From the IMG/VR virus record IMGVR_UViG_3300034279_001861, positions 111,161-175,160 of that record: a stretch of 64,000 bases of DNA; one strand, written 5' to 3'. Source of the stretch: a virus. The notes below the pieces were generated by a model, which saw only the letters and a list, made by a program, of their open reading frames with translations, was not told the DNA's origin and made no database searches. Position 1 is the stretch's first letter; every line of letters begins with the position of its first letter. The translations under genes were made by a program, and so were the position numbers. Shown piece after piece: positions 1,758 through 61,935 of the stretch.

Positions 1758-2108
1758 TTAGAATCCGTTTAGAATCGCCTTGTCGATGTTAGCTGCGGCA
1801 GCCGCTTCAGCGGCGATACAATCGGCGTTCGCTTGTTCCGACCACTCGCTGAAATCTTTCATCTTTTGCGTGTGATCAGTTTCTGTCTCTTGCTCGCGGA
1901 TACAATCAGTATAGTCCGCAATAAATTCTTTAGCCCTTTCAAGTAAAAAAGCTGCTTCTTCAAGCGTACTGAGCATTTGCGAAAACCCAGACACGTCATC
2001 GTAATCGTTGTCAACAAACCAGTTACGAACGTCTTCAATTGATGCTATATCTTTTCTCAAGGCGTATTGTTGACGACGTAGCAGAATTTTCAGAGTATCT
2101 TTAGACAT
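1758..2108 (-). CDS. Hypothetical helical protein
   Basis: 116 aa, not recognised. Predicted by eye to be almost entirely helical, acidic in the middle (QETETDHTQKMKDFSEW) with an alanine-rich stretch near the C terminus. AAGGA lies 8 bases before the ATG. The gap upstream (2109-2169) holds a small hairpin that is also found at 2766-2781. Confidence 0.65.
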   Translation of the reverse strand: MSKDTLKILLRRQQYALRKDIASIEDVRNWFVDNDYDDVSGFSQMLSTLEEAAFLLERAKEFIADYTDCIREQETETDHTQKMKDFSEWSEQANADCIAAEAAAAANIDKAILNGF

Positions 2109-2137
2109 AGAAATATTCCTTAACAGAAAGAAAAAAA

Positions 2138-2153
2138 CCGGAGCCTATCCCGA
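2138..2153 (-). repeat. Short intergenic hairpin, copy A (possible weak terminator)
   Basis: On the minus strand TCGG and CCGG enclose the 8-base loop GATAGGCT, followed directly by a T-run of seven. The same hairpin with loop TATAGGCT recurs at 2766-2781. The loop ATAGGCT and the CCGG arm are kept, while surrounding bases differ. Confidence 0.4.
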
Positions 2154-2169
2154 CATGGTTGGGGTGGGT

Positions 2170-2535
2170 TTACTCGGACTCGCAAGAGGTTTGCTCGGCC
2201 TGCCGATTGATTTGGCAGCGTAACCACGATCGACCACAGGCGTCGAGGAAATAAATCAAACTTGGCTCTCCGGCGTAGGCTAGTCGGAACCCGATCAATT
2301 CTACCTGCGACCACGGATCTGTCGGGAAATTCTTAACCCTAGCTTCGACCGGCTTGTGCGTCTTGACAATCGAATGTGTGATCTTGACAAGATCGTCGAG
2401 GTTTAGGTCCTCCCAGCAAGATTTCGTAACTTGATCCACCAGCGGAGCCAATGCCCTTTCTGCTGCTCCTTGTCCGTTGTCACGGTCATACAGCTGCGGA
2501 TTTAACGTATCTTTTCCTAGATCTACTTTCATCAC
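2170..2535 (-). CDS. C-terminal part of a split conserved small phage protein
   Basis: Begins (GTG or the next ATG) with MKVDL, then LYDRDNGQGAAERA. From memory this segment, with RVMKVDLSGD and YDRDNG, is the second half of a widespread small phage/plasmid protein whose first half is the gene at 2554-2736. The two frames are the same frame: a single TAA and six codons (D-Y-L-R-G-R) separate them, which are just the residues expected in an unbroken family member. No convincing ribosome site of its own; translation may restart after the stop. The remaining ~90 residues are unrecognised. Function unknown. Confidence 0.65.
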   Translation of the reverse strand: MMKVDLGKDTLNPQLYDRDNGQGAAERALAPLVDQVTKSCWEDLNLDDLVKITHSIVKTHKPVEARVKNFPTDPWSQVELIGFRLAYAGEPSLIYFLDACGRSWLRCQINRQAEQTSCESE

Positions 2536-2553
2536 ACGACCCCTTAAATAGTC

Positions 2554-2736
2554 TTAATACTGGCCGCCTCTGTTGACTGTGCTAATGCCGCTGGTGTACT
2601 GTCTTGCGTCTTCCACCGTCATGGGGACCGCACCGGACTCATCCAAAAAACCCATTCCCTGTTGCTTGCTTGCGTTAAACAGTGCCGCTAGTACTTCCGC
2701 TTTGTCCAACTTGCTAATATCAATTGTGTTGCTCAT
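2554..2736 (-). CDS. N-terminal part of a split conserved small phage protein
   Basis: 60 aa. It has the family pattern ISKLDKAEVLAALFNASK, QGMGFL and MTVEDAR. Intact relatives, as I remember them, run on through a YFDYLxGRVMKVDL segment; here a TAA replaces the residue before DYLRGRV and the rest is continued in frame by the gene at 2170-2535. GGGAA lies about 9 bases before the ATG. It may be a split but functional pair, a nonsense mutant, or a sequencing error. TAA is a normal stop in this genome, so whole-genome recoding is unlikely. Confidence 0.65.
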   Translation of the reverse strand: MSNTIDISKLDKAEVLAALFNASKQQGMGFLDESGAVPMTVEDARQYTSGISTVNRGGQY

Positions 2737-2765
2737 TTTATAGTTCCCAAAAAAGTGTTAGTAAA

Positions 2766-2781
2766 CCGGAGCCTATACCGG
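2766..2781 (-). repeat. Short intergenic hairpin, copy B
   Basis: CCGG-TATAGGCT-CCGG on the minus strand, followed by TTT; sister of the hairpin at 2138-2153. It lies between the second DUF6197-like triplet and the split gene. Confidence 0.4.
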
Positions 2782-2802
2782 CAGAAGGCAGTTAGAACTA
2801 GA

Positions 2803-3063
2803 CTAGATGTCTAGCTCTTTAAGAACAGCAAGGACTTCTTCCTTAGTACGTTCAGGATGGTCGTTCCAGTCAACTACATTCATCCCTAAATGTTCTTTGA
2901 GTTTAGGGTAGTTCAAGTCACAAGTACCAGTAGCTTCCAGTAACCCTACCACGCAAAATCTACGAGCCTGAGGATCGTGAACTCTTACACTTTGACCGCT
3001 TGCGTTTCTTGCGTAATCTCCTTGACACCAGTCTTTTTCTTCTAACAATTCCCAAGCTTTCAT
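2803..3063 (-). CDS. DUF6197-like small protein, copy 4
   Basis: 86 aa, almost the same as copy 1 at 578-838 in protein and DNA, including the AAAGAG end with TAG stop. It is the last member of the second triplet, as copy 1 is of the first, so a block duplication or gene conversion joined the two positions. Family marks: WCQ, RFC, WNDHPERTKEEV, KELDI. Function unknown. Confidence 0.85.
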   Translation of the reverse strand: MKAWELLEEKDWCQGDYARNASGQSVRVHDPQARRFCVVGLLEATGTCDLNYPKLKEHLGMNVVDWNDHPERTKEEVLAVLKELDI

Positions 3064-3380
3064 ATATCAAGCTCCTTAAGCAAAGCGATGACTTCTTCTT
3101 TGGTACGTTCAAGCTCGTCGTTCCAATTTATCAAACAGTCGTCGCGACCTAGAAACTCCAACTTTTCCTCGGCTTTGCCGATGTCAAAATATGCCGCTAA
3201 GTTTGCAGTATCGGTTTCCCACGGACCAAAAGTTTTAGCTGAGTGCTTTCGAAGAATGGCTCCGACGGCACAAAAGCTAATGGCAGTCGTATCGACAGGC
3301 CTACAAGTTAAGTCTAGTTCGTTTTTTGCCATGCGACCTTGGCACCAGCCGTACTTTTCAAGTATTTCAAAGGCTTTCAT
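3060..3380 (-). CDS. DUF6197-like small protein, copy 5
   Basis: 106 aa, the longest copy, with an enlarged central region (about residues 45-80). Family marks WCQ, SFC, WNDELERTKEEV and KELDI are present. Joined to copy 4 by ATGA overlap, with AAGGAG from its own terminal codons serving the next start. Function unknown. Confidence 0.85.
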   Translation of the reverse strand: MKAFEILEKYGWCQGRMAKNELDLTCRPVDTTAISFCAVGAILRKHSAKTFGPWETDTANLAAYFDIGKAEEKLEFLGRDDCLINWNDELERTKEEVIALLKELDI

Positions 3381-3664
3381 ATGTCAAGCTCCTTGAGTAA
3401 CGCAACAACTTCTTCTTTGGTACGGCTAGAATGATCGTTCCAAACTGAAAGGCTTGCACTGCTTCCAAAACCAAGTTTACGGCAGGCTTTAGCAAGGTCT
3501 TCCGTTAGAGTAGTGCGTGAGCATCGATTCTTTCGATATATCGCACCTATTAAACAAAAGTTAGCTGCAGTTTTGTCGTTAATACTACAGCCAACCCCTG
3601 TTTCGTCTGTTGCCAGGTTTTCTTGGCACCAGCCGTACTTTTCAAGTAGCTCGAAGGCTTTCAT
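3377..3664 (-). CDS. DUF6197-like small protein, copy 6
   Basis: 95 aa; first member of the second triplet. Its ribosome site GGAG, 7 bases before ATG, lies within the last codons of the upstream gene at 3666-4184. WCQ, NFC, WNDHSSRTKEEV and KELDI are visible. The most diverged of the six in the middle. Function unknown. Confidence 0.85.
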   Translation of the reverse strand: MKAFELLEKYGWCQENLATDETGVGCSINDKTAANFCLIGAIYRKNRCSRTTLTEDLAKACRKLGFGSSASLSVWNDHSSRTKEEVVALLKELDI

Positions 3665-3665
3665 A

Positions 3666-4184
3666 TCAGTCTCCGTAGATAGGTAAAAGTAAACTGTCGC
3701 TGTCGCGAAGAGTATATTTTTGGCAAATGGCGATAACCCATTTAAAGTCTCGCTTAGAAATTAAAAGCACCTCGCCGCGACCAGTCATACCGACAGCTGT
3801 CCAGCCTTTGTTAAGGTACAGTCGCAAAGAAGTTTCGTCCGCTTCAGGCCACAAGGCCTGAAAGTAGCTCAAAACAATCTTAGACTGCACTGGGTCTTCG
3901 GTTGAAAACATCATCAGGTACCTAACAGGATTTTTCATATCTTCCCAGTAGGATCCATGAATTGGAATTTTGAAATTTTGAGGCTTCTCCTGATAGTCAG
4001 AATTGAGACGGATCGCTTTTTCCCTTAGCTCGCAGATATCGTTTCGTCGCATTTCGGGATCAAGTGTTTCTACGATCACGTCTACAAATTTCTTGTAGCG
4101 ATCTACTGTGCATTTCAAACACGGTAGACCGCTGATTTTGTCGCAACAGTTAGAGCAAAGATTTCTAAAACTAGCGTCGTTCAT
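3666..4184 (-). CDS. Hypothetical protein with N-terminal CxxC pairs
   Basis: 172 aa. The N terminus has two cysteine pairs (CSNCC and CLKC about 12 residues apart), a likely zinc-binding knuckle. The rest is unrecognised and mixed alpha/beta. AAAAGGGG precedes the ATG by about 10 bases. It overlaps the end of the gene at 4171-4407 and its last codons carry the ribosome site for the DUF6197-like triplet, so it is part of that transcript. Confidence 0.65.
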   Translation of the reverse strand: MNDASFRNLCSNCCDKISGLPCLKCTVDRYKKFVDVIVETLDPEMRRNDICELREKAIRLNSDYQEKPQNFKIPIHGSYWEDMKNPVRYLMMFSTEDPVQSKIVLSYFQALWPEADETSLRLYLNKGWTAVGMTGRGEVLLISKRDFKWVIAICQKYTLRDSDSLLLPIYGD

Positions 4185-4407
4185 TTCTTTTTTCCCCTTT
4201 TATTACCACGTCTTTAGCGACACCAAATCCGCACAGTTTGGCAAACATTTCCTGCCAATCGAAAGCTTTTTCGTTCCACTCTCCGTCGATTTGTAATGGA
4301 TGCGGGTTTAGAAGCTCTTCAAAATGGGCAAAAAGGTCGTGTTTGTCCGGTGCTTTCGACTTGCCGACTAGCTCCGCCGCTTTTTCAAGCGTCATTGTCG
4401 TTTTCAT
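4171..4407 (-). CDS. Hypothetical small protein
   Basis: 78 aa, starting at MKTTMTLEKAAEL. This start is chosen because GGAGG lies 8 bases upstream and the ATG overlaps the TGA of the preceding gene (ATGA). Longer in-frame starts would lie inside that gene. It is basic at the C terminus. Not recognised. Confidence 0.65.
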   Translation of the reverse strand: MKTTMTLEKAAELVGKSKAPDKHDLFAHFEELLNPHPLQIDGEWNEKAFDWQEMFAKLCGFGVAKDVVIKGEKRNERR

Positions 4408-4631
4408 TTCTTTTTCCTCCATGGAACTTGAATTTCTGCAACTCTGCGGTTGGCTTCTGCACATTGTTTGTCGATACCGTCAAGCTCGGCAATAAGCCTT
4501 TCAGCAATATCGCCAAAATAAATTCGTATAAGCCTTTTGAGAATCTGGCGATCTCCGTGAGGCCAAACCAGACCGGCCTGCTTTAAGCTGTTTATGACAG
4601 CTTCGAGAACGATTGAATCTGTACTTTCCAT
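4404..4631 (-). CDS. Hypothetical small helical protein
   Basis: 75 aa, largely helical by eye, with a lysine-rich end (PWRKKK). The codons for this end also hold the GGAGG that serves the next gene. The start at 4631 is almost adjacent to the stop of the gene at 4633-5157. Not recognised. Confidence 0.6.
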   Translation of the reverse strand: MESTDSIVLEAVINSLKQAGLVWPHGDRQILKRLIRIYFGDIAERLIAELDGIDKQCAEANRRVAEIQVPWRKKK

Positions 4632-4632
4632 G

Positions 4633-5157
4633 TCATTTGCTTTCTAAGTATTGATAGGCGGGACTAAGCTCGCGATCGTTCCAGTAGGTACCTACGATCA
4701 TGCGATGCTGATCAACTGGTGTTTCGACTTTTATCGAAAGACCAGCTGCAATTTTTTCTTCAACAGCTGCGTTAAGTTTTTCAGAACGCAAACGGTATGA
4801 ATCCCAACAAAAGCGGCGATAGTCCTCTAGGGGTAGAGATCCAGCATAAACTGCTGTTATCGATTTACAGTTACGGGCAACCCTTTTGACAACCAAATGC
4901 GTCCAGTCAGCGGGAGGTATTTCGTCTACGAAAACGATAATACCAATTGGTTTTCGAAGCCGATTCCAGACAGTCGCTTCAAATAGCCAGTTGGAGATAA
5001 ATTCCAATCTAACCATGTAGTTTCCCTTGTCCGTTTGGACAAAAGGAACTTCGGCAACACAAATACCTTCGGTCGTGTGAACGGCAAAATCCCGCCACAG
5101 GCAGGTGCCAGGCTTTAACCTGGACACCAGCTCTTCTAAGTTTTGTAGTTTTTCCAC
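4633..5157 (-). CDS. Hypothetical protein
   Basis: 174 aa if started at GTG 5157, directly after the TAA of the preceding gene; a TTG at 5187 would overlap that gene by 29 bases. Neither has a strong ribosome site, so the start is uncertain. The body is mixed alpha/beta with a hydrophobic strand (GIIVFVDEI). No known motif. Confidence 0.6.
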   Translation of the reverse strand: MEKLQNLEELVSRLKPGTCLWRDFAVHTTEGICVAEVPFVQTDKGNYMVRLEFISNWLFEATVWNRLRKPIGIIVFVDEIPPADWTHLVVKRVARNCKSITAVYAGSLPLEDYRRFCWDSYRLRSEKLNAAVEEKIAAGLSIKVETPVDQHRMIVGTYWNDRELSPAYQYLESK

Positions 5158-5158
5158 G

Positions 5159-5536
5159 TTATTTCTTTGGGTCCATGAAAATGACAATGAAAAAAACTTC
5201 TAGTGACATGCGGGATTCAAACTTTGCAACCCACTCAAGCTCCTCGGCTGACAAAGTTTCCTTTGTCTTATTGAGGATAGTAATCTCGCTGTCTTTAAGT
5301 TCTCGAAGTTTGCGATCCAGAATCTTGTTCATCGATCTGCGAAAGACAGGGCCTGGTTCGCCTCTCTGAATAACAAATCCCAACCAGAAAGCGTCCTGAA
5401 ACGCGTGCACTGTGTTAGTGACGAGCTTTTCGTTGCGAACTTCTTTAACCGGTGCTCCCGGCTTGTCCTGGACCTGCATCGCAGAAAGCGTGAAAAGACT
5501 AGACAAAGTAAACAGAATCAAAATGATCGTACGCAT
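5159..5536 (-). CDS. Secreted or inner-membrane-anchored hypothetical protein
   Basis: 125 aa. The N terminus MRTIILILFTLSSLFTLSA is a typical Sec signal with possible cleavage after Ala19. The start at 5536 has AAGGA 7 bases upstream; the longer frame to 5581 would run into the structured RNA region. The mature part is charged and helical with a hydrophobic C-terminal strand (VFFIVIFM). It is the first gene after the RNA region. It might act in the envelope during lysis or exclusion, but nothing specific is seen. Confidence 0.65.
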   Translation of the reverse strand: MRTIILILFTLSSLFTLSAMQVQDKPGAPVKEVRNEKLVTNTVHAFQDAFWLGFVIQRGEPGPVFRRSMNKILDRKLRELKDSEITILNKTKETLSAEELEWVAKFESRMSLEVFFIVIFMDPKK

Positions 5537-5565
5537 GATTTTTCCTTGTGAATGTAAATTAAAGA

Positions 5566-6350
5566 TTACCGCAGCATTCACTGAATGCGGTAAGCTTGTG
5601 TCCTCTGCATTTGCCAGGGCTTGGAACCTGCCTCACCGTGAGGGCTGCATTACACGCCGCAACTCTGCAAAGATCCTCACTGATCTTTACGCTTGCGGCA
5701 GGTCGGTCATGTAACTTGACCGGTGGTATAGAGTGAGCTATGCATTTTTCTACCTGTATGCTCAGGCTCTTAGCGTAGAAGTACGGGCAAGTTTCCGCTC
5801 TGCCTAGCGATCCGTTCTTCCACGGATTATTACTGGCCCCTTCGCGGTAGCTTTGCGTCGGACTCTCTCCGCGTGACTTGTCGTTACTGATCAAGTCCAC
5901 TGCTGACGTTTTTTAGTGTCGTCAGTACCACGTTACCTTTGGTTTAGCGAGAAGGTATTTCTCGGAACGTTTACTGCTTTTTAGCTCCGCCTTGAGATTG
6001 TTATAGACAACGCAAGACGCCAACATAAAAGCCCACAGAAATTTAGGGCTAGTTGTCGGAACAGTTTTCACTTTCTGGGGAATGCCCTTTCGGACTTTAG
6101 TTCAACCCCGAAACCGTGCCACGTGTACCTTTACACGCCACACAGTAATGCTTTACAAGACCCATAAAGAGAAGATCTTGGTAAGGACGACACAAGTGCT
6201 AGCCGCCCGCAAATATCGCAAAGACAAAAGACGCTGTTACCCTCAGCTTGATTTTTACATCAAGCGAGTGCGGCCTTTGCGATACTCGACTTAAGCCAGT
6301 GAAAATACGTTTGCTTTTGTATTTCGACCGACTTGCAAACGATAAGTCGT
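5566..6350 (-). ncRNA. Large structured noncoding RNA candidate (GOLLD/ROOL-like)
   Basis: About 785 bases without a credible gene, tiled by at least 19 local helices on the minus strand. Examples: CGACTT/AAGTCG (6329-6349), a 10-bp TATCGCAAAG/CTTTGCGATA enclosing a further hairpin (6214-6284), and ACGGTTT/AAACTGT enclosing GGGG/CCCC and a GAAA-capped stem (6061-6117). Others are CTGACG/CGTCAG (5903-5925), GCCGCAA/TTGCGGC enclosing AAAGATC/GATCTTT (5656-5699), and TTACCGCA/TGCGGTAA (5566-5593). G-U wobble pairs and the GNRA loop fit only the minus strand. Phages are known to carry giant ornate RNAs of this size (GOLLD, ROOL); assignment to either is inference. Ends are approximate. Confidence 0.6.
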
Positions 6351-6390
6351 CTGCATATTATTATGACTCGTTTTTAACGAAAATTAAGCA

Positions 6391-6687
6391 CTAAAAAGTA
6401 TACTCTACAACCTTACCATTTTGGGCTACTCTCAGTCTAACCTTATCAGCACTAAGCATTTCTTTAAGTCGCTTCTTTTTCTCCACACCCATGTTGATGA
6501 TAGATTGCTTGATCGTCTGCATGGTCTGCACACGTCTGGCTGCTGCCTTGTTACAAGGTTTACAACTTTTCTTCGCAACCGGTGCGGCACCGCTTGCGAG
6601 GAACGGAAACTCTCGTACGAAGTTAGGATTTGTAGCGAGCGTGAGCAACACCGTATCTTCAAGTGTAAGTAGCTTGTGTGTAGCCAT
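6391..6687 (-). CDS. Hypothetical basic protein with CKPC motif
   Basis: 98 aa, lysine/arginine-rich with a single CKPC motif in the middle and a predicted helical core. The start is coupled to the gene before it by TAATG. It is the last gene before the structured RNA. Might bind nucleic acid or metal, but this is a guess from charge only. Confidence 0.65.
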   Translation of the reverse strand: MATHKLLTLEDTVLLTLATNPNFVREFPFLASGAAPVAKKSCKPCNKAAARRVQTMQTIKQSIINMGVEKKKRLKEMLSADKVRLRVAQNGKVVEYTF

Positions 6688-10705: not shown

Positions 10706-11112
10706 GCTACGACCTGTACTGTAAATGTGTCTATAAGTGCGTTATTTGCATTGTTACGTACTTCTACTGTTTGCGGACTTACCTTAGCCGTCAAGGTGCT
10801 GTAACAAGTAAACTTAACCCACTGACCAGCTGTTACTGCGAACGTGCTGCCAGGGCTGTCGGCTACCTGTATCCATGGCGGCGTTGTTGGTTGCCCGTTT
10901 GGGTTTAAAGTTGCTTCAGAAGCTGCTACTTGATAGAAAAGTTGAATATTGGACGGGCTTGTCAAGTTTACAACTTTAAGTGTTACACCGTATGTAAGTA
11001 ATTTACTGGTGATAGTGCCGCTTGTTGTGCCTAAACTCCACTGTATAGCTTCCCAGTCTGGGTTAACAACGCTTGGTGGTTGTACGTTAAACAGACCAGC
11101 AAATGGTAACAT
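10702..11112 (-). CDS. Beta-sandwich virion protein, fibre-associated
   Basis: 136 aa from [10 protein letters not shown]. The start is set by a TAATG overlap with the stop of the collagen-like fibre gene. The sequence is almost all beta strand with Ser/Thr/Val-rich repeats and no charged helices, like an Ig-like fold. Coupling to the fibre gene suggests a fibre tip, chaperone or associated receptor-binding module. Family not identified. Confidence 0.6.
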   Translation of the reverse strand: MLPFAGLFNVQPPSVVNPDWEAIQWSLGTTSGTITSKLLTYGVTLKVVNLTSPSNIQLFYQVAASEATLNPNGQPTTPPWIQVADSPGSTFAVTAGQWVKFTCYSTLTAKVSPQTVEVRNNANNALIDTFTVQVVA

Positions 11113-13256
11113 TATATTGTTGTATCTCCAGCTAGTACAAAGTTGTTTGCACTTCTTTGGATCAGAGACACGACTGCCCATCTACCTGCTGTTTTAGTGT
11201 GACTTTGTCTGTTGTTTATGGTTGTACCCGACGCATTAAAAGTAACTTGACCTGTACCTGACTGTATCACAGTAACCGTAAAACCAACTGGTAAGCCTGT
11301 AGGTACCGTTATCGTTATAGCGTTACTGCATTCCAAGACTACACCGTTATCACCGGCTCCAAGTGTTCGCGATGCGTTAGCCTCGGTTACAATTATACCT
11401 GTACCTGTAACATACTTATTGGAAGTGATACCACCGGTGCTAAGCATATTAGTGCTAGCGTTGTAACTAAGAGCTGGCGACGTTGTATCGATGTTAGGCG
11501 TTTGATTACTCCCGCCCGCCGCCACAAATACAACGTAAAACAAAGAATCTGCGTCTGTGGCTGTTGCGTTTATAGCTGTGCTAGGACCCGTCGCACCGGT
11601 AGAGCCAGTTACTCCTGTGGCTCCTGTAGTCCCGGCAGCTCCGTTAGCACCTGTTGGTCCGGTAGCACCTACCGTCCCACTTATGCCTGTGGCACCTTGC
11701 GAACCTGTAGCCTGTAACGATAAGACAACTTGGTCTGACGCGGTGTAAGTTCCGTTTGTAACAATACTCTCTACACTAAAATCAAAATAGGTTGCTTCTT
11801 CAGTTACAGCGGTAATTCGATACAAGCCAAAGTTAGTCACGTTGTTTATCAACCACGTCTTTATAATGTCGCTAGCTTTAAACGTGTCTAACCATGCCGT
11901 CATATCTATGTCATTGTAATTTGACTTTTCAACGTAAATATGCTCGACAGCATCCAATACTGCGCTATCAAAATAAACTTGACCGTGGGAAGTTAACGCC
12001 ATTATCTTGGCAGATTCTATCTCAGTGTCTGCGTAGAAATAGCTGTCGTCACCTGTGTGTTTTAAAGGAAATACAGGGGCCTCTGGTGAAAGGTTGCTGT
12101 TAAACTCCCAGCTCATCAGAAAATCATTTTCGTCGGGTGTAGGCGGGCCGGACGGGCCGGGTGGTCCTGTTGGCCCTGTTGGGCCTGTTGGTCCCGAAGG
12201 CCCGGTTGAACCTTCGCAACAAGGCCCTTGTGGCCCAACGGCACCTTGCGGACCTGCAGGACCTATAGGTCCTTGTGGGCCTACGTCACCCTGAGGTCCT
12301 TGATAGCCTTGAGGTCCCCGATAGCCTTGAGGTCCCCGATAGCCTTGAGGTCCGCGGTATCCCTGCGGCCCGCGATAACCGTAAGGTCCACGGTATCCCT
12401 GCGGACCGCGGTACCCGGTTGCTCCCCGACCACCTAGCGGTCCTTGAGGCCCTGTTGGGCCTTGGTTACCGTCTGGGCCTGGATTGCCGTCTGGGCCTGG
12501 ATTACCGTCTGGGCCTGGGTTGCCATCTGGGCCTGGATTACCGTCTGGACCGCTAGGTCCGGCTGGGCCTTGTGGTCCTTCTGGCCCGCTTGGTCCCGCG
12601 GGTCCGGTGGGTCCGGCTGGGCCTTGTGGTCCGTTTGGTCCTACTGGTCCTTGTGGTCCTTCTGGCCCAACGGGTCCTTCCGGTCCGTCAGGCCCTTGCG
12701 GTCCGGCTGGGCCTTGTGGTCCTTCCGGACCTTCTGGACCTTCGGGTCCTTGCGGCCCCTGTGGGCCTTCTGGTCCTGTTGGACCCTGTGGACCTTGTGG
12801 GCCTAACTGCGGGCTGGGTATTCCAAGATTTAAATCAATAGAGAACGTACAATCGCCAGATTTTGTTACGTCAAGCGAGGCAAACGGAGCTCCGCCGGGG
12901 CCTACGGTACTTACAGTGGCACTTCCGCTAATTTCCGGGCAAGGAAAAGCAATATCCAGCGTAAAGGTGTAATCGCAGCATGCACCTTTAGTTATTATGA
13001 GACTAGCGTTTTCTCCACCAATTGGCACTACGGTGGTATCAACATCGCCCGCACCTATTACAGGACAAATAGGATCGGGATCTAGCATCGGAACCGGCAG
13101 CGACGGGCAATCGAAAATATCAGTCGGTGCCTGCGGTACCTGTGGATTAAGCAGCCAATTACCGCCAGGTATAGGAAAAATACAAGGCACATCGCATTTG
13201 ATAACATCAAATACAGGTGACTGAGGTCCTTGTGGACACGGAGTCGTCGGTGCCAT
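11112..13256 (-). CDS. Collagen-like tail or head fibre protein (GPx type)
   Basis: 714 aa. Residues 1-150 form a Cys/Pro-rich N-terminal domain, probably the attachment part. Residues ~152-375 are uninterrupted Gly-X-Y triplets, mostly GPQ, GPE, GPD and GYR, predicted to form a collagen triple helix. Residues ~376-515 form a globular insert. A short second collagen run (GATG type, ~515-556) leads to a C-terminal beta domain that resembles the end of the protein at 54572-55153. Collagen-like regions are known in phage fibres as rigid trimer stalks. Glycosyltransferases lie 1.4-4 kb downstream. Exact place on the virion unknown. Confidence 0.88.
12130..12803 (-). repeat. Tandem collagen-triplet DNA repeat
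   Basis: Imperfect 9- and 18-base repeats coding Gly-Pro-X. Three sub-blocks are visible: YRGPQG-type 18-mers near 12290-12420, GPDGNP-type 18-mers near 12470-12550, and GPxGPx elsewhere. Such arrays change length by slippage. Confidence 0.85.
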
Positions 13257-52033: not shown

Positions 52034-53260
52034 TTATATTATAGTCTCAGTCACGCTTGTCAGCTGATTGGCACTATAAATAAAAGTTTTTCGGTAGACG
52101 CGACTAGGGCTGCCGTGCGTGTAATCTAATTGCGTAAGTAGCCCGGCACTATATGTAAATATTTTTGACGAACCGTCGGAGTAAGTTATAGTTGAAACGT
52201 TACCGTTGACGTCATAAGTAATCGCAGGTGCCGAGCCGATTATCTGATTATAACGAACCTGCCGCAACTCGGGTAGCGACAAAGTTTGAGACGCTGCAAA
52301 CGATAAAAGACCTGAAACATTACCAGTAGCGCCCGTGGCACCTGCAACCCCAGTTGCACCTTGGCTTCCTGTAGCACCAGTTGCACCCTGAACACCTTGG
52401 CTTCCTGTGGCACCTGTAGCACCCTGAACACCCTGGCTTCCTGTGGCACCTGTAGCACCCTGAACACCCTGGCTTCCCGTTGCACCTTGGCTTCCTGTGG
52501 CACCTGTAGCACCCTGAACACCCTGGCTTCCCGTTGCACCTTGGCTTCCTGTAGCACCAGTTGCACCCTGAACACCTTGGCTTCCTGTAGCACCAGTTGC
52601 ACCCTGAACACCCTGGCTTCCCGTTGCGCCTTGGCTTCCTGTAGCACCAGTTGCACCCTGAACACCTTGACTACCTGTAGCCCCGGTTAGACCTTGGCTT
52701 CCTGTAGCACCTTGACTACCTGTAGCCCCGGTTAGACCTTGACTACCTGTAGCCCCGGTTAGACCTTGGCTTCCTGTAGCACCTTGACTACCTGTAGCCC
52801 CGGTTAGACCTTGACTACCTGTAGCCCCGGTTAGACCTTGGCTTCCTGTGACACCAGTTGCACCCTGAACACCTTGGCTTCCCGTTGCACCTGTAGCACC
52901 CTGAACACCTTGGCTTCCCGTTGCACCTGTAGCCCCTGCTACACCCTGCGTACCCTGACTACCAGTTGCACCTTGGCTTCCTGTAGCCCCTGTAATACCG
53001 GTAGATCCTGTTATACCCTGACTACCAGTTGCACCAGTTGCACCCTGAACACCTTGGCTTCCTGTGGCACCTTGACTACCTGTAGCCCCGGTAGCACCGG
53101 TCAAACCCGTAGCTCCAGTCGCTCCGGCAGCATCTCCAATATAATCACGAACATCTTCGCCGTTAGTAAACGTAAGCAGCTGCCTACCAAATGCATCAGT
53201 GGTTAACTCGTCAATTTTAGTTAACTGATCTGAATAAGGCTGTGGTAGATAGTTCGTCAT
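52034..53260 (-). CDS. Collagen-like fibre protein (GATGxQG type)
   Basis: 408 aa. Residues 1-45 form an N-terminal anchor. Residues ~46-309 are Gly-X-Y triplets made mainly of GAT, GSQ, GVQ and GLT, unlike the Pro-rich collagen at 11112-13256. Residues ~310-408 form a cap with [15 protein letters not shown] and later repeats that look like short YD/RHS-type strands. Thr-rich bacterial and viral collagens can be glycosylated; a GT2-type enzyme is encoded right before it. Probably a head or tail fibre. Confidence 0.85.
52334..53125 (-). repeat. Tandem repeat coding for collagen triplets (18/27-base units)
   Basis: Nearly exact repeats of units such as GGxGTxCAGGGTGC and CAAGGTGCAACGGG, in changing order, over about 790 bases. 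Prone to length change and to assembly collapse. Confidence 0.85.
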
Positions 53261-59310: not shown

Positions 59311-61935
59311 TTACACGCTAAAAAGTTGATTCTGACAGACGGCAAGCCGTGCTGTCAACGGGAAGTTCGGATTACAAGCAGCTGAACGCCAAAGGGCAGC
59401 CAGCTTGTACATTGCATAGTCTTTAGCTAACGCTTCGCCTTCTGTGTTGCATTCTGCGAGCTTCTCATAATGACAAATTTTAGGGGTTTGATAATTTCGA
59501 CAACAGCCCAACAAGCTTCTCTTATAAACAGATTCTTTAGAAAAAGAGAAATCTTCTGAAAAAGAAGCAGCTAGTAGATTAGCATTTGCTGTAGCTATTT
59601 TATCAATTAACGCAGAAGGTGATCGCTCTATACGTAAAGGCAGCGTCTCATCGGATGCCATTTTGCTGTAAATAGCAGGCAAAACAGCTTGTGCAGTTTT
59701 AAGGTGTTCTTCGGTTTTGGTTAGTCTACTGTAATCAGCGAGACTAAGAAAAATACAACGATCTGCCATAGCAGCCAGTTGGCTATCACAAGCAGCAGAG
59801 CCAAACGCTGCAAGTTTCTCTACAGGAAAAGGTTTTGTCAGTATGCCTACAAGCAAACTATCCGGTACGTTTGCAGCACCTTCCATAGAGGCAAGGGCAT
59901 AGCCGAGTCGGATTTGAGACGCGGTTTTCTCTGACCAAAACCCGTGTTGGCCGGACTGATAGAGGATTACATCAAGCGGCGCAGTAGAAGTGCTAGCCAG
60001 CTTAATATAATCCTGAAGTTCAAATACGCCGGAATCTGAAGCAGCTTTCGTGAAGTAATCGGCCTTAGCTCCGTAAGCAATACGATCAGCCGGTCTAAAC
60101 ACACGTGAAATATCAAACCACGTTGGATCTGGATTATCGACATGAAGATGGTGTAAGTCGCCAGCTACTTTGACCAATCGAGTAAGATTGTTTTTACAAC
60201 CACCGGCTGCACACTTCTCGCTAGTGCAATACTCGTCGCGAGTTCTCGCTGCATGTTTGCAGAACGAGCAAATATCGTTAGGCACGCGGCAATTGTGGCT
60301 GACAAAACCGCCAAGACTGTAGGACTCGTCTTCCTCGACTTCGAAGTTATATGTTTCGACATCCGTTACGTCTCTACTTTCAATATCAGCTATTCTGTAA
60401 GCGTAACGTTGGTCAGGACAAATCCGCATAGCTGCAGGTTTTTCTCGTAGCTGTTTTCTAGTTAACGTGTAGCTGGCGGCCTTCTGAGATCCTGAAGCCA
60501 ACTGCCACAAATCTAAATGGCTAACATTTAACGTATATTCTATCCCGCTATTTTCGTAACCGCTATTTTCACAAAGTGCGTGATCTATACGATAAATAGA
60601 AGTTGGAATGCCTACTGAGGCCAGCAAATCCCTGCCCTGTAGAACTAAATGCACGTTAGCGGAAGAAAAGTGCCCACCTTTGGCATCAGTCCAACCATCG
60701 CCGTCCAGCCAAGCGCCTAAAAAAGCTAACTTTATTTCGGTAGCAGCGTTAAATATTTCTGGCGGTATGCGTTTATTTTTACAGCCTCGGCCAACATACT
60801 GTCTTAAAAACTCAGAAAATTCGGTGCTGCGAACGATAACAGCTAAAGCTGCGTTGCTATTCTTTTTAGGCTCAATACTGACGGTTATGTCGGGGTAAAG
60901 AATTTCAACCAACCTAGGTAAACGTCTTGGAAGCGAATCTGTAAGATTGCAAGTAAACTCCGTACTACAGGCTTTTTCGCCGTTGTAGCTAAAACTACCT
61001 TCTGCCAAGTAATAACCTAATATAGCCGCAAGCGTCGGACAGCTCAAAGCAGCATAACCGTTAAAACGCGTTACAGGCTGATAAAAAAACCTGTCGCCTT
61101 TTTGCAAATGCTCCGCGTGAGTCCAGGCTGCAGGCTCGGCATCAAAAGCTTTTGTGTCTTTAAAATAACGTCTGGCTTTACCTTTAACGCTACTAGCAGC
61201 ACATGCAAATGTCTTTGCCAACATTGGGTGGTCGGCAGTTAACTCCAACGGTAAAGGCAATCCGTTGCATTTAAAAGTGTACGCTTTACCGGTATATCTA
61301 CGTCGATTAGTACCAGTTACTCGACGCCAGCGGCCTTTGTGCGTCCAAACATACATACCTGTTTTAATTTCAGCGATGGATAGATAGCCCTGATCTCTGG
61401 TCAAAACAGGATAAGTCGGATCCAGTACACAAGCCATGCTGACCGGGAAATCCTCTCCTCGAGCAATCTTTTCTACCTCAGTATCCGCTACCAAACCACC
61501 GTTACGGTCGGCGGCAGCCTTAGTGGCATTCAAAGCACAGAGAAGTTCAACACGCCGCATATCATCGTTGTACGCTGAAGCTTTCACGTGTCCATAAAAC
61601 GGATCGCCACGTTCTGGCTTGTTTTTATGGTTTCGAAAAAACTTAGCAAACTTTACAAACGTATCGTGATACTTTTTGCAAGTAGCTTCTTTGAAAGCAT
61701 CACCGTTGCGATTAGGCCCGTAAGCCTCGCTAGCTCCTAACGCAATTAAGTGAACAGGTATCTCGTCACTTGCAAACTTGTAATTGTCAATCTGCGGCAA
61801 AAAAGAATGACTAGCCGTCTTAAGAAAATCACGACGGTCATTGCCGATAAGCCCGCGGCTACCGATTTTAACAGGCACAACAATTTGCCTGTCGAACTCC
61901 CAACCTGACGGCGATACAAACTTGATATGAGCCAT
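59311..61935 (-). CDS. Prohead protease, intein-containing
   Basis: 874 aa precursor; 494 aa after splicing. Exteins: residues 1-168 and 549-874. The N-extein has GPNRNGDAFKEATC, FRNHKNKPERGDPFYGHVKAS and EDFPVSMAC, the pattern of prohead proteases in large phages; Ser166 could be the nucleophile (inference). The C-extein starts CRVPNDICSFCKHAA and has further cysteine pairs (a zinc site), then a long helical part. The order before the scaffold supports it. The intein sits at the most conserved part of the enzyme, at Cys549. Confidence 0.72.
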   Translation of the reverse strand: MAHIKFVSPSGWEFDRQIVVPVKIGSRGLIGNDRRDFLKTASHSFLPQIDNYKFASDEIPVHLIALGASEAYGPNRNGDAFKEATCKKYHDTFVKFAKFFRNHKNKPERGDPFYGHVKASAYNDDMRRVELLCALNATKAAADRNGGLVADTEVEKIARGEDFPVSMACVLDPTYPVLTRDQGYLSIAEIKTGMYVWTHKGRWRRVTGTNRRRYTGKAYTFKCNGLPLPLELTADHPMLAKTFACAASSVKGKARRYFKDTKAFDAEPAAWTHAEHLQKGDRFFYQPVTRFNGYAALSCPTLAAILGYYLAEGSFSYNGEKACSTEFTCNLTDSLPRRLPRLVEILYPDITVSIEPKKNSNAALAVIVRSTEFSEFLRQYVGRGCKNKRIPPEIFNAATEIKLAFLGAWLDGDGWTDAKGGHFSSANVHLVLQGRDLLASVGIPTSIYRIDHALCENSGYENSGIEYTLNVSHLDLWQLASGSQKAASYTLTRKQLREKPAAMRICPDQRYAYRIADIESRDVTDVETYNFEVEEDESYSLGGFVSHNCRVPNDICSFCKHAARTRDEYCTSEKCAAGGCKNNLTRLVKVAGDLHHLHVDNPDPTWFDISRVFRPADRIAYGAKADYFTKAASDSGVFELQDYIKLASTSTAPLDVILYQSGQHGFWSEKTASQIRLGYALASMEGAANVPDSLLVGILTKPFPVEKLAAFGSAACDSQLAAMADRCIFLSLADYSRLTKTEEHLKTAQAVLPAIYSKMASDETLPLRIERSPSALIDKIATANANLLAASFSEDFSFSKESVYKRSLLGCCRNYQTPKICHYEKLAECNTEGEALAKDYAMYKLAALWRSAACNPNFPLTARLAVCQNQLFSV
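60292..61431 (-). mobile_element. LAGLIDADG intein in the prohead protease
   Basis: Residues 169-548 of the precursor (380 aa). Splicing marks: Cys at position 1 (CVLDPTYPVLT, block A), TADHPML as block B (T-x-x-H), YNFEVEEDESYSLGG as block F and VSHN followed by Cys+1 as block G. Two LAGLIDADG-like helices, LGYYLAEGS (306-314) and LGAWLDGDG (406-414), keep their acidic residues. So both splicing and homing nuclease look intact. Confidence 0.93.

Follow-up and report, generated by a model that had tools for sequence, protein, structure and literature searches.

The phage DNA analysed here encodes a noncoding RNA core of approximately 700 nt with a multi-domain fold that is conserved across related phages, and a match to the type-P1 twister ribozyme lies at its 3' edge. 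The DNA is a stretch of 64,000 nt (positions 111,161 to 175,160 of the 175-kb IMG/VR record IMGVR_UViG_3300034279_001861), referred to as the window in the following, and the 700-nt core is located on its minus strand, with the 5' end at position 6354 and the last nucleotide at 5655. In the reading that we favour, with a probability of roughly 78%, this is a stand-alone, independently transcribed gene for a large structured RNA which is trimmed by the twister and carried as an accessory cassette.

The initial annotation had described a gene-free stretch of about 785 bases (5566-6350) as unique in the window, which was borne out. The minus strand, on which the genes are encoded, has no ORF of at least 60 aa between 5901 and 6390 (490 nt), and the next-longest gap of this kind is 147 nt. 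The remainder of the region is overlapped by a 113-aa ORF with a GTG start (5559-5900, minus strand), but this ORF is not conserved, since the homologues contain scattered stop codons and numerous frame-shifting indels (length not divisible by three). All four aligned RNA sequences contain stop codons and indels, no reading frame is shared, and a protein conserved among the relatives was not found in any frame. The boundaries were nearly exact as well: the core spans 6354-5655, the twister 5656-5597 and a 3' hairpin 5593-5566.

Homologues were found by two routes. The major head protein led to related phages, one of which (G001, locus L052) carries the RNA; pattern scans of viral_contigs yielded L060 and L062 with patterns specific for the RNA, and L005 with a pattern for the twister core. 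Thus, the RNA is carried by four other IMG/VR phage contigs that represent three further distinct sequences, L062 being identical to G001 across the RNA. The most divergent homologue is that of L005 (78.0% identical), which likewise ends in a P1 twister. At the nucleotide level, the RNA is 85.8% identical in G001 and 78.0% in L005, compared to 75-76% and 63-65%, respectively, for the two adjacent genes; the nucleotide constraint is stronger on the RNA than on its coding neighbours, and this without a shared reading frame. Further RNA-specific patterns only returned the known members of viral_contigs again, plus chance matches (L080-L083), and a 15-nt pattern gave chance matches only in viral_contigs, two of which were checked and judged unrelated. 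One pattern scan of genome_contigs revealed two chance matches and no new member, and blastn against known phages gave nothing over the RNA core.

The gene directly upstream (6391-6687, minus strand) encodes a protein of 98 aa for which no match was found in Pfam or PHROGs; homologues are present in 8 of the 13 related records tested and at 17 loci of viral_contigs. It marks the insertion site in all relatives, and the RNA lies directly behind its homologue in all five carrier records. A covariance model built from the 5' domain of the RNA (R1) matched these five records with E-values not exceeding 1.1e-37. It gave no match in the 32 other phage records to which it was applied, among them relatives that retain the 98-aa gene. 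As the place is fixed and the other 32 records gave no R1 match, the RNA is accessory and bound to one genomic site. Related phages keep the upstream gene and the promoter-like element described below and have other sequence at the spot of the RNA.

Folding of the full-length sequence gave z-scores of -6.95 for the minus and -5.06 for the plus strand relative to dinucleotide shuffles. Tiles of 250 nt on the minus strand were unexceptional (z of -0.9 to -3.5), several coding tiles being lower, and since folding energy alone is no proof, we relied on comparative evidence. The lowest plus-strand z-scores in the window (12251-12750) belong to repeat DNA in the gene at 11112-13256 (minus strand), which, like the one at 52034-53260 (minus strand), encodes long collagen-like Gly-X-Y repeats, probably of fibre proteins; the protein from 11112-13256 matches Pfam Collagen. 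A helix count with two sequences had revealed few double changes and no strand preference. As this left the question undecided, more homologues were sought, and the covariation alignment comprised four distinct sequences (window, G001/L062, L060 and L005). In this alignment, 34 of 221 consensus pairs were changed on both sides with pairing kept, whereas shuffles gave 13.0 such pairs (sd 2.7) and slid partners 0-6, and 96.1% of the cells were paired; with four distinct sequences, the covariation comes from few lineages, mostly from L005. A stem search that used no prior structure revealed 11 covarying stems, whereas column-shuffled controls gave 0-2. The consensus fold comprises 32 helices, and its energy on the minus strand (-279.5 kcal/mol) was far below both that on the plus strand (-218.4 kcal/mol) and the average of column shuffles (-211.5); the minus strand is therefore the strand of the RNA. 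These findings show a conserved multi-domain fold of an RNA of about 700 nt across related phages. They also confirm what had been proposed from the window sequence, i.e. dense structure with at least 19 helices, a GNRA tetraloop and the minus strand as the RNA; the compensatory changes that were to be looked for in related phages are abundant.

The first hairpin of the RNA, helix 1 (6354-6347 with 6342-6335), has double changes in four of its eight pairs, and helix 2 (6333-6319 with 6308-6294) in three pairs. The clearest covariation was found in helix 3 (6290-6273 with 6225-6209), which is a long element of the 5' domain, encloses helices 4 and 5 and contains five double-change pairs; CGCAAA/TTTGCG in the window is replaced by TCTAGT/ACTAGA in L005. 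The GNRA hairpin at 6095-6084 reads GUCC-GAAA-GGGC in the window and GUCU-GAAA-AGAC in G001 and L060, the stem covarying from C-G to U-A; within the four-sequence alignment it is absent from L005. Three of the six pairs of helix 22 (5925-5920 with 5908-5903) have double changes. In the last domain (5700-5655), helices 31 and 32 have one and three such pairs and close directly against the twister. Pairing of 6198-6195 with 6072-6069 (CACU/AGUG in three sequences, CGUU/AACG in L005) would form a pseudoknot. This pairing is among the 11 covarying stems of the search without a prior structure, but the candidate is weak, as shuffling the columns also yields 0-2 stems of equal grade. All these features are on the minus strand.

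The last part of the interval, for which the initial annotation had correctly given a large structured RNA but missed the ribozyme, is filled by the type-P1 twister (5656-5597, minus strand). It matched RF03160 over the full model (1-68 of 68) with 55.8 bits and an E-value of 1.3e-11; in the whole 175-kb record, where it is the sole twister-P1, the E-value was 5.3e-13. The score does not reach the Rfam gathering score of 67.2 bits, which is a curation threshold and not a structural feature, and the other P1 twisters in the phage contigs examined were likewise below the cut-off (51-62 bits). The conserved core (UAA.GC.GCC ... GGU.CCAAGCCC ... AAA.GC.GAGG) is intact and the P1 pairing is present with one outer mismatch; the last closing helix of the RNA (helix 31) abuts the ribozyme. 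A P1 twister is found at the equivalent place of L005 (58.4 bits). Twisters cleave at a U-A step (PMC6154101), and together with the intact core this places the predicted cut site between U5652 and A5651, which would leave an RNA of about 703 nt. The RNA is unlikely to be circularised, because the record has only one twister-P1 and no ribozyme was recognised at the 5' end of the RNA.

In three of the five carrier records (G001, L062 and L060), no recognisable twister is present and a different tail takes its place, so the RNA does not depend on a twister. The unrelated tail (L052, 1795-1910; L060, 3504-3620) consists of GCACC/GGUGC and AUGAAUCA/UGAUUCAU in pseudoknot order, with one arm mismatch in L060, followed by a terminator-like hairpin. 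The tails of L052 and L060 gave no Rfam ribozyme match, and they are possibly an uncatalogued ribozyme or an end-protecting structure.

Most of the other contigs found with the twister pattern have the twister in a gap between two genes, just as the window has it after the RNA and ahead of the next gene; in most, it lies within about a dozen nt behind the upstream ORF and shortly before the start of the next gene. From this position, the twister looks like punctuation between units. The 60-nt tail of the window resembles other RF03160 members in that it fits the full model with an intact core, but it is located at the 3' edge of a conserved 700-nt RNA, whereas in most other contigs found with the twister pattern the ribozyme follows the stop codon of a protein gene. 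In L005, the ornate RNA and its twister are followed by three more P1 twisters between small units, each of which precedes a copy of a recurrent terminator-like hairpin (type GAGCCCTTGGATTCGTGAATGGTCCAAGGGCTC). This array (1880-5482, minus strand) contains the repeated hairpin GAGCCC..GGATTCGTGAATGGTCC..GGGCTC and the leader CATTCACAAGGA, and short structured stretches precede two of the three further P1 twisters. L054, from the relative G003, has a noncoding stretch of about 380 nt with inverted repeats (2240-2625) near the equivalent genomic place; it contains a type-P5 twister (38.1 bits, above the cut-off) and, ahead of the next gene, a hairpin, and is a different structured RNA. Another contig, L008 (IMGVR_UViG_3300021255_001139), has six matches to self-cleaving ribozymes within 2.3 kb (1842-4105): a type-II hammerhead, RAGATH-5 (which stays below its cut-off), one type-P1 and three type-P5 twisters. 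They are located in the gaps that separate small genes or at the ends of these genes, and most of them shortly precede the ribosome-binding site of the next gene. RAGATH stands for RNAs Associated with Genes Associated with Twister and Hammerhead ribozymes. Such phage clusters (L008, L003) likewise have self-cleaving ribozymes of several classes between small genes, but those are small intergenic ribozymes, unlike the large RNA with a ribozyme tail described here.

A promoter-like element, CTTAATTTTCGTTAAAAACGAGTCATAATAATATG, at 6388-6354 (minus strand) immediately follows the 98-aa gene and its stop codon. It is found there (CTAAAT..CGTGTCATWATWATATG) in most relatives, regardless of what comes next, and, also given as CTTAAT..AAAAACGAGTCATAATAATATG, it recurs ahead of other units in L054. 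A sigma-70 consensus scan did not flag it; from its position and recurrence we infer that the element is a phage promoter and that the RNA starts at helix 1. Behind the twister, a terminator-like hairpin (TTACCGCA...TGCGGTAA in the window; 5593-5566, minus strand) is also kept in G001, L060 and L062, where it is followed by T-rich sequence; the window copy was not flagged by a terminator consensus scan. The downstream gene (5159-5536, minus strand, start at 5536) encodes a protein of 125 aa with an N-terminus that resembles a signal peptide by eye and without a family match in Pfam or PHROGs. G001 has a copy that is 52% identical and L060 also has a copy, both further from the RNA than in the window. 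Elsewhere on the minus strand of the window, two runs of three tandem DUF6197 (PF19698) paralogues are located at 578-1409 and 2803-3664, and an 874-aa protein (59311-61935) appears intein-like by eye (..YPVLTRDQGYLSI.. to ..SLGGFVSHNC), with phrog_36001 matching residues 179-550.

GOLLD, ROOL or a new class had been suggested for the RNA, and the covariance-model search proposed at that time matched neither of the two families; a new class fits. With gathering thresholds, Rfam revealed only a tRNA in the whole window. A scan of the region against 4227 families at E<=5 gave the twister-P1 and one chance-level match (E 0.77) and hence no match to GOLLD (RF02032), ROOL (RF03087), group I and II introns, HEARO, OLE or raiA. 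Elsewhere in the records, GOLLD gave chance matches of at most 10.4 bits compared to a cut-off of 150; a ROOL search of four records was without a match, in a run in which the positive control was also silent. According to PMC12286853, phages and prophages carry GOLLD as a large ornate noncoding RNA, which often exceeds 800 nt and is sometimes found near a Met-tRNA, and ROOL is phage-borne with a complex fold (ROOL env-120, 659 nt). The RNA of the window is similar in kind to GOLLD, and to ROOL also in size, but it differs from both in that no covariance model matches and a twister follows its roughly 700 nt. Searches of the open-access literature, which covers few subscription journals, yielded no large ornate RNA that ends in a ribozyme. 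Large phage RNAs and twisters are known kinds of RNA; what appears to be new is an ornate RNA with a twister as processor of its 3' end. With no Rfam family for the core and this combination not found in the literature, the core is classified as a new RNA family and not as a member of GOLLD or ROOL.

It is very improbable that the RNA is nevertheless a GOLLD or ROOL too divergent for the current covariance models. Its size and phage setting are similar and a Met-tRNA gene lies about 5 kb away in the window, as GOLLD env-38 lies downstream of a Met-tRNA (excerpts of PMC12286853), but neither model matched the region even at E<=5, GOLLD only giving its chance matches elsewhere, and a 3' twister is not described for either family in these excerpts. 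Least credible of all is that a protein gene, either unannotated or in recent decay, occupies the region and that its DNA folds well by chance: the 113-aa ORF exists and single-sequence folding of the tiles does not stand out in the window, but no frame is conserved, indels break the frames, covariation is strong and nucleotide conservation exceeds that of the neighbouring genes.

Less remote, but still unlikely, is the reading in which the RNA belongs to the mRNA of the downstream gene as a long 5' leader that would control its expression, with the twister setting the 5' end or the stability of this mRNA. A leader would fit the type-P5 twister of L054, which lies just behind a promoter-like element and ahead of a gene, the twisters just before ribosome-binding sites in other contigs found with the twister pattern, and the 3' hairpin of the window, which is a weak terminator. 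Yet the gene that follows is not constant, being the 125-aa gene in the window but an unrelated one in each of G001, L060 and L005, while the RNA stays. In addition, the twister cut would strip all 700 nt from the mRNA, and the RNA of G001, L062 and L005 has a strong terminator-like hairpin behind it. The RNA is probably independent of the downstream gene.

In the favoured reading as a stand-alone, twister-trimmed RNA gene, the minus strand would be transcribed from the phage promoter just behind the 98-aa gene, with a start near 6354, and the transcript would adopt the multi-domain structure of about 700 nt that the covariation demonstrates. After the last domain, the twister, as judged from its intact core, would cut between U5652 and A5651 and thereby separate the RNA from the 3' hairpin, from the ribozyme itself and from any transcript that continues into the following gene. 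As a tentative guess by analogy with GOLLD and ROOL, for which such roles have been proposed (PMC12286853), its most likely use in infected cells may be that of a scaffold, cage or decoy made of RNA. The mature RNA would have about 703 nt and a 2',3'-cyclic phosphate just past the closing helix, and the product would be a folded RNA and not a protein. More doubtful is a new class of giant phage RNAs with interchangeable self-processing 3' modules, i.e. the twister in two lineages and the pseudoknot-like tail of G001 and L060, which might then be a new self-cleaving ribozyme.

GOLLD and ROOL form RNA cages, and to our knowledge only few large ornate RNAs are known from bacteria and phages. A further unrelated member, as proposed here, widens this class. 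In addition, the linkage to the twister would give a concrete job to a ribozyme with few established natural roles, namely to provide a large noncoding RNA with a defined 3' end.
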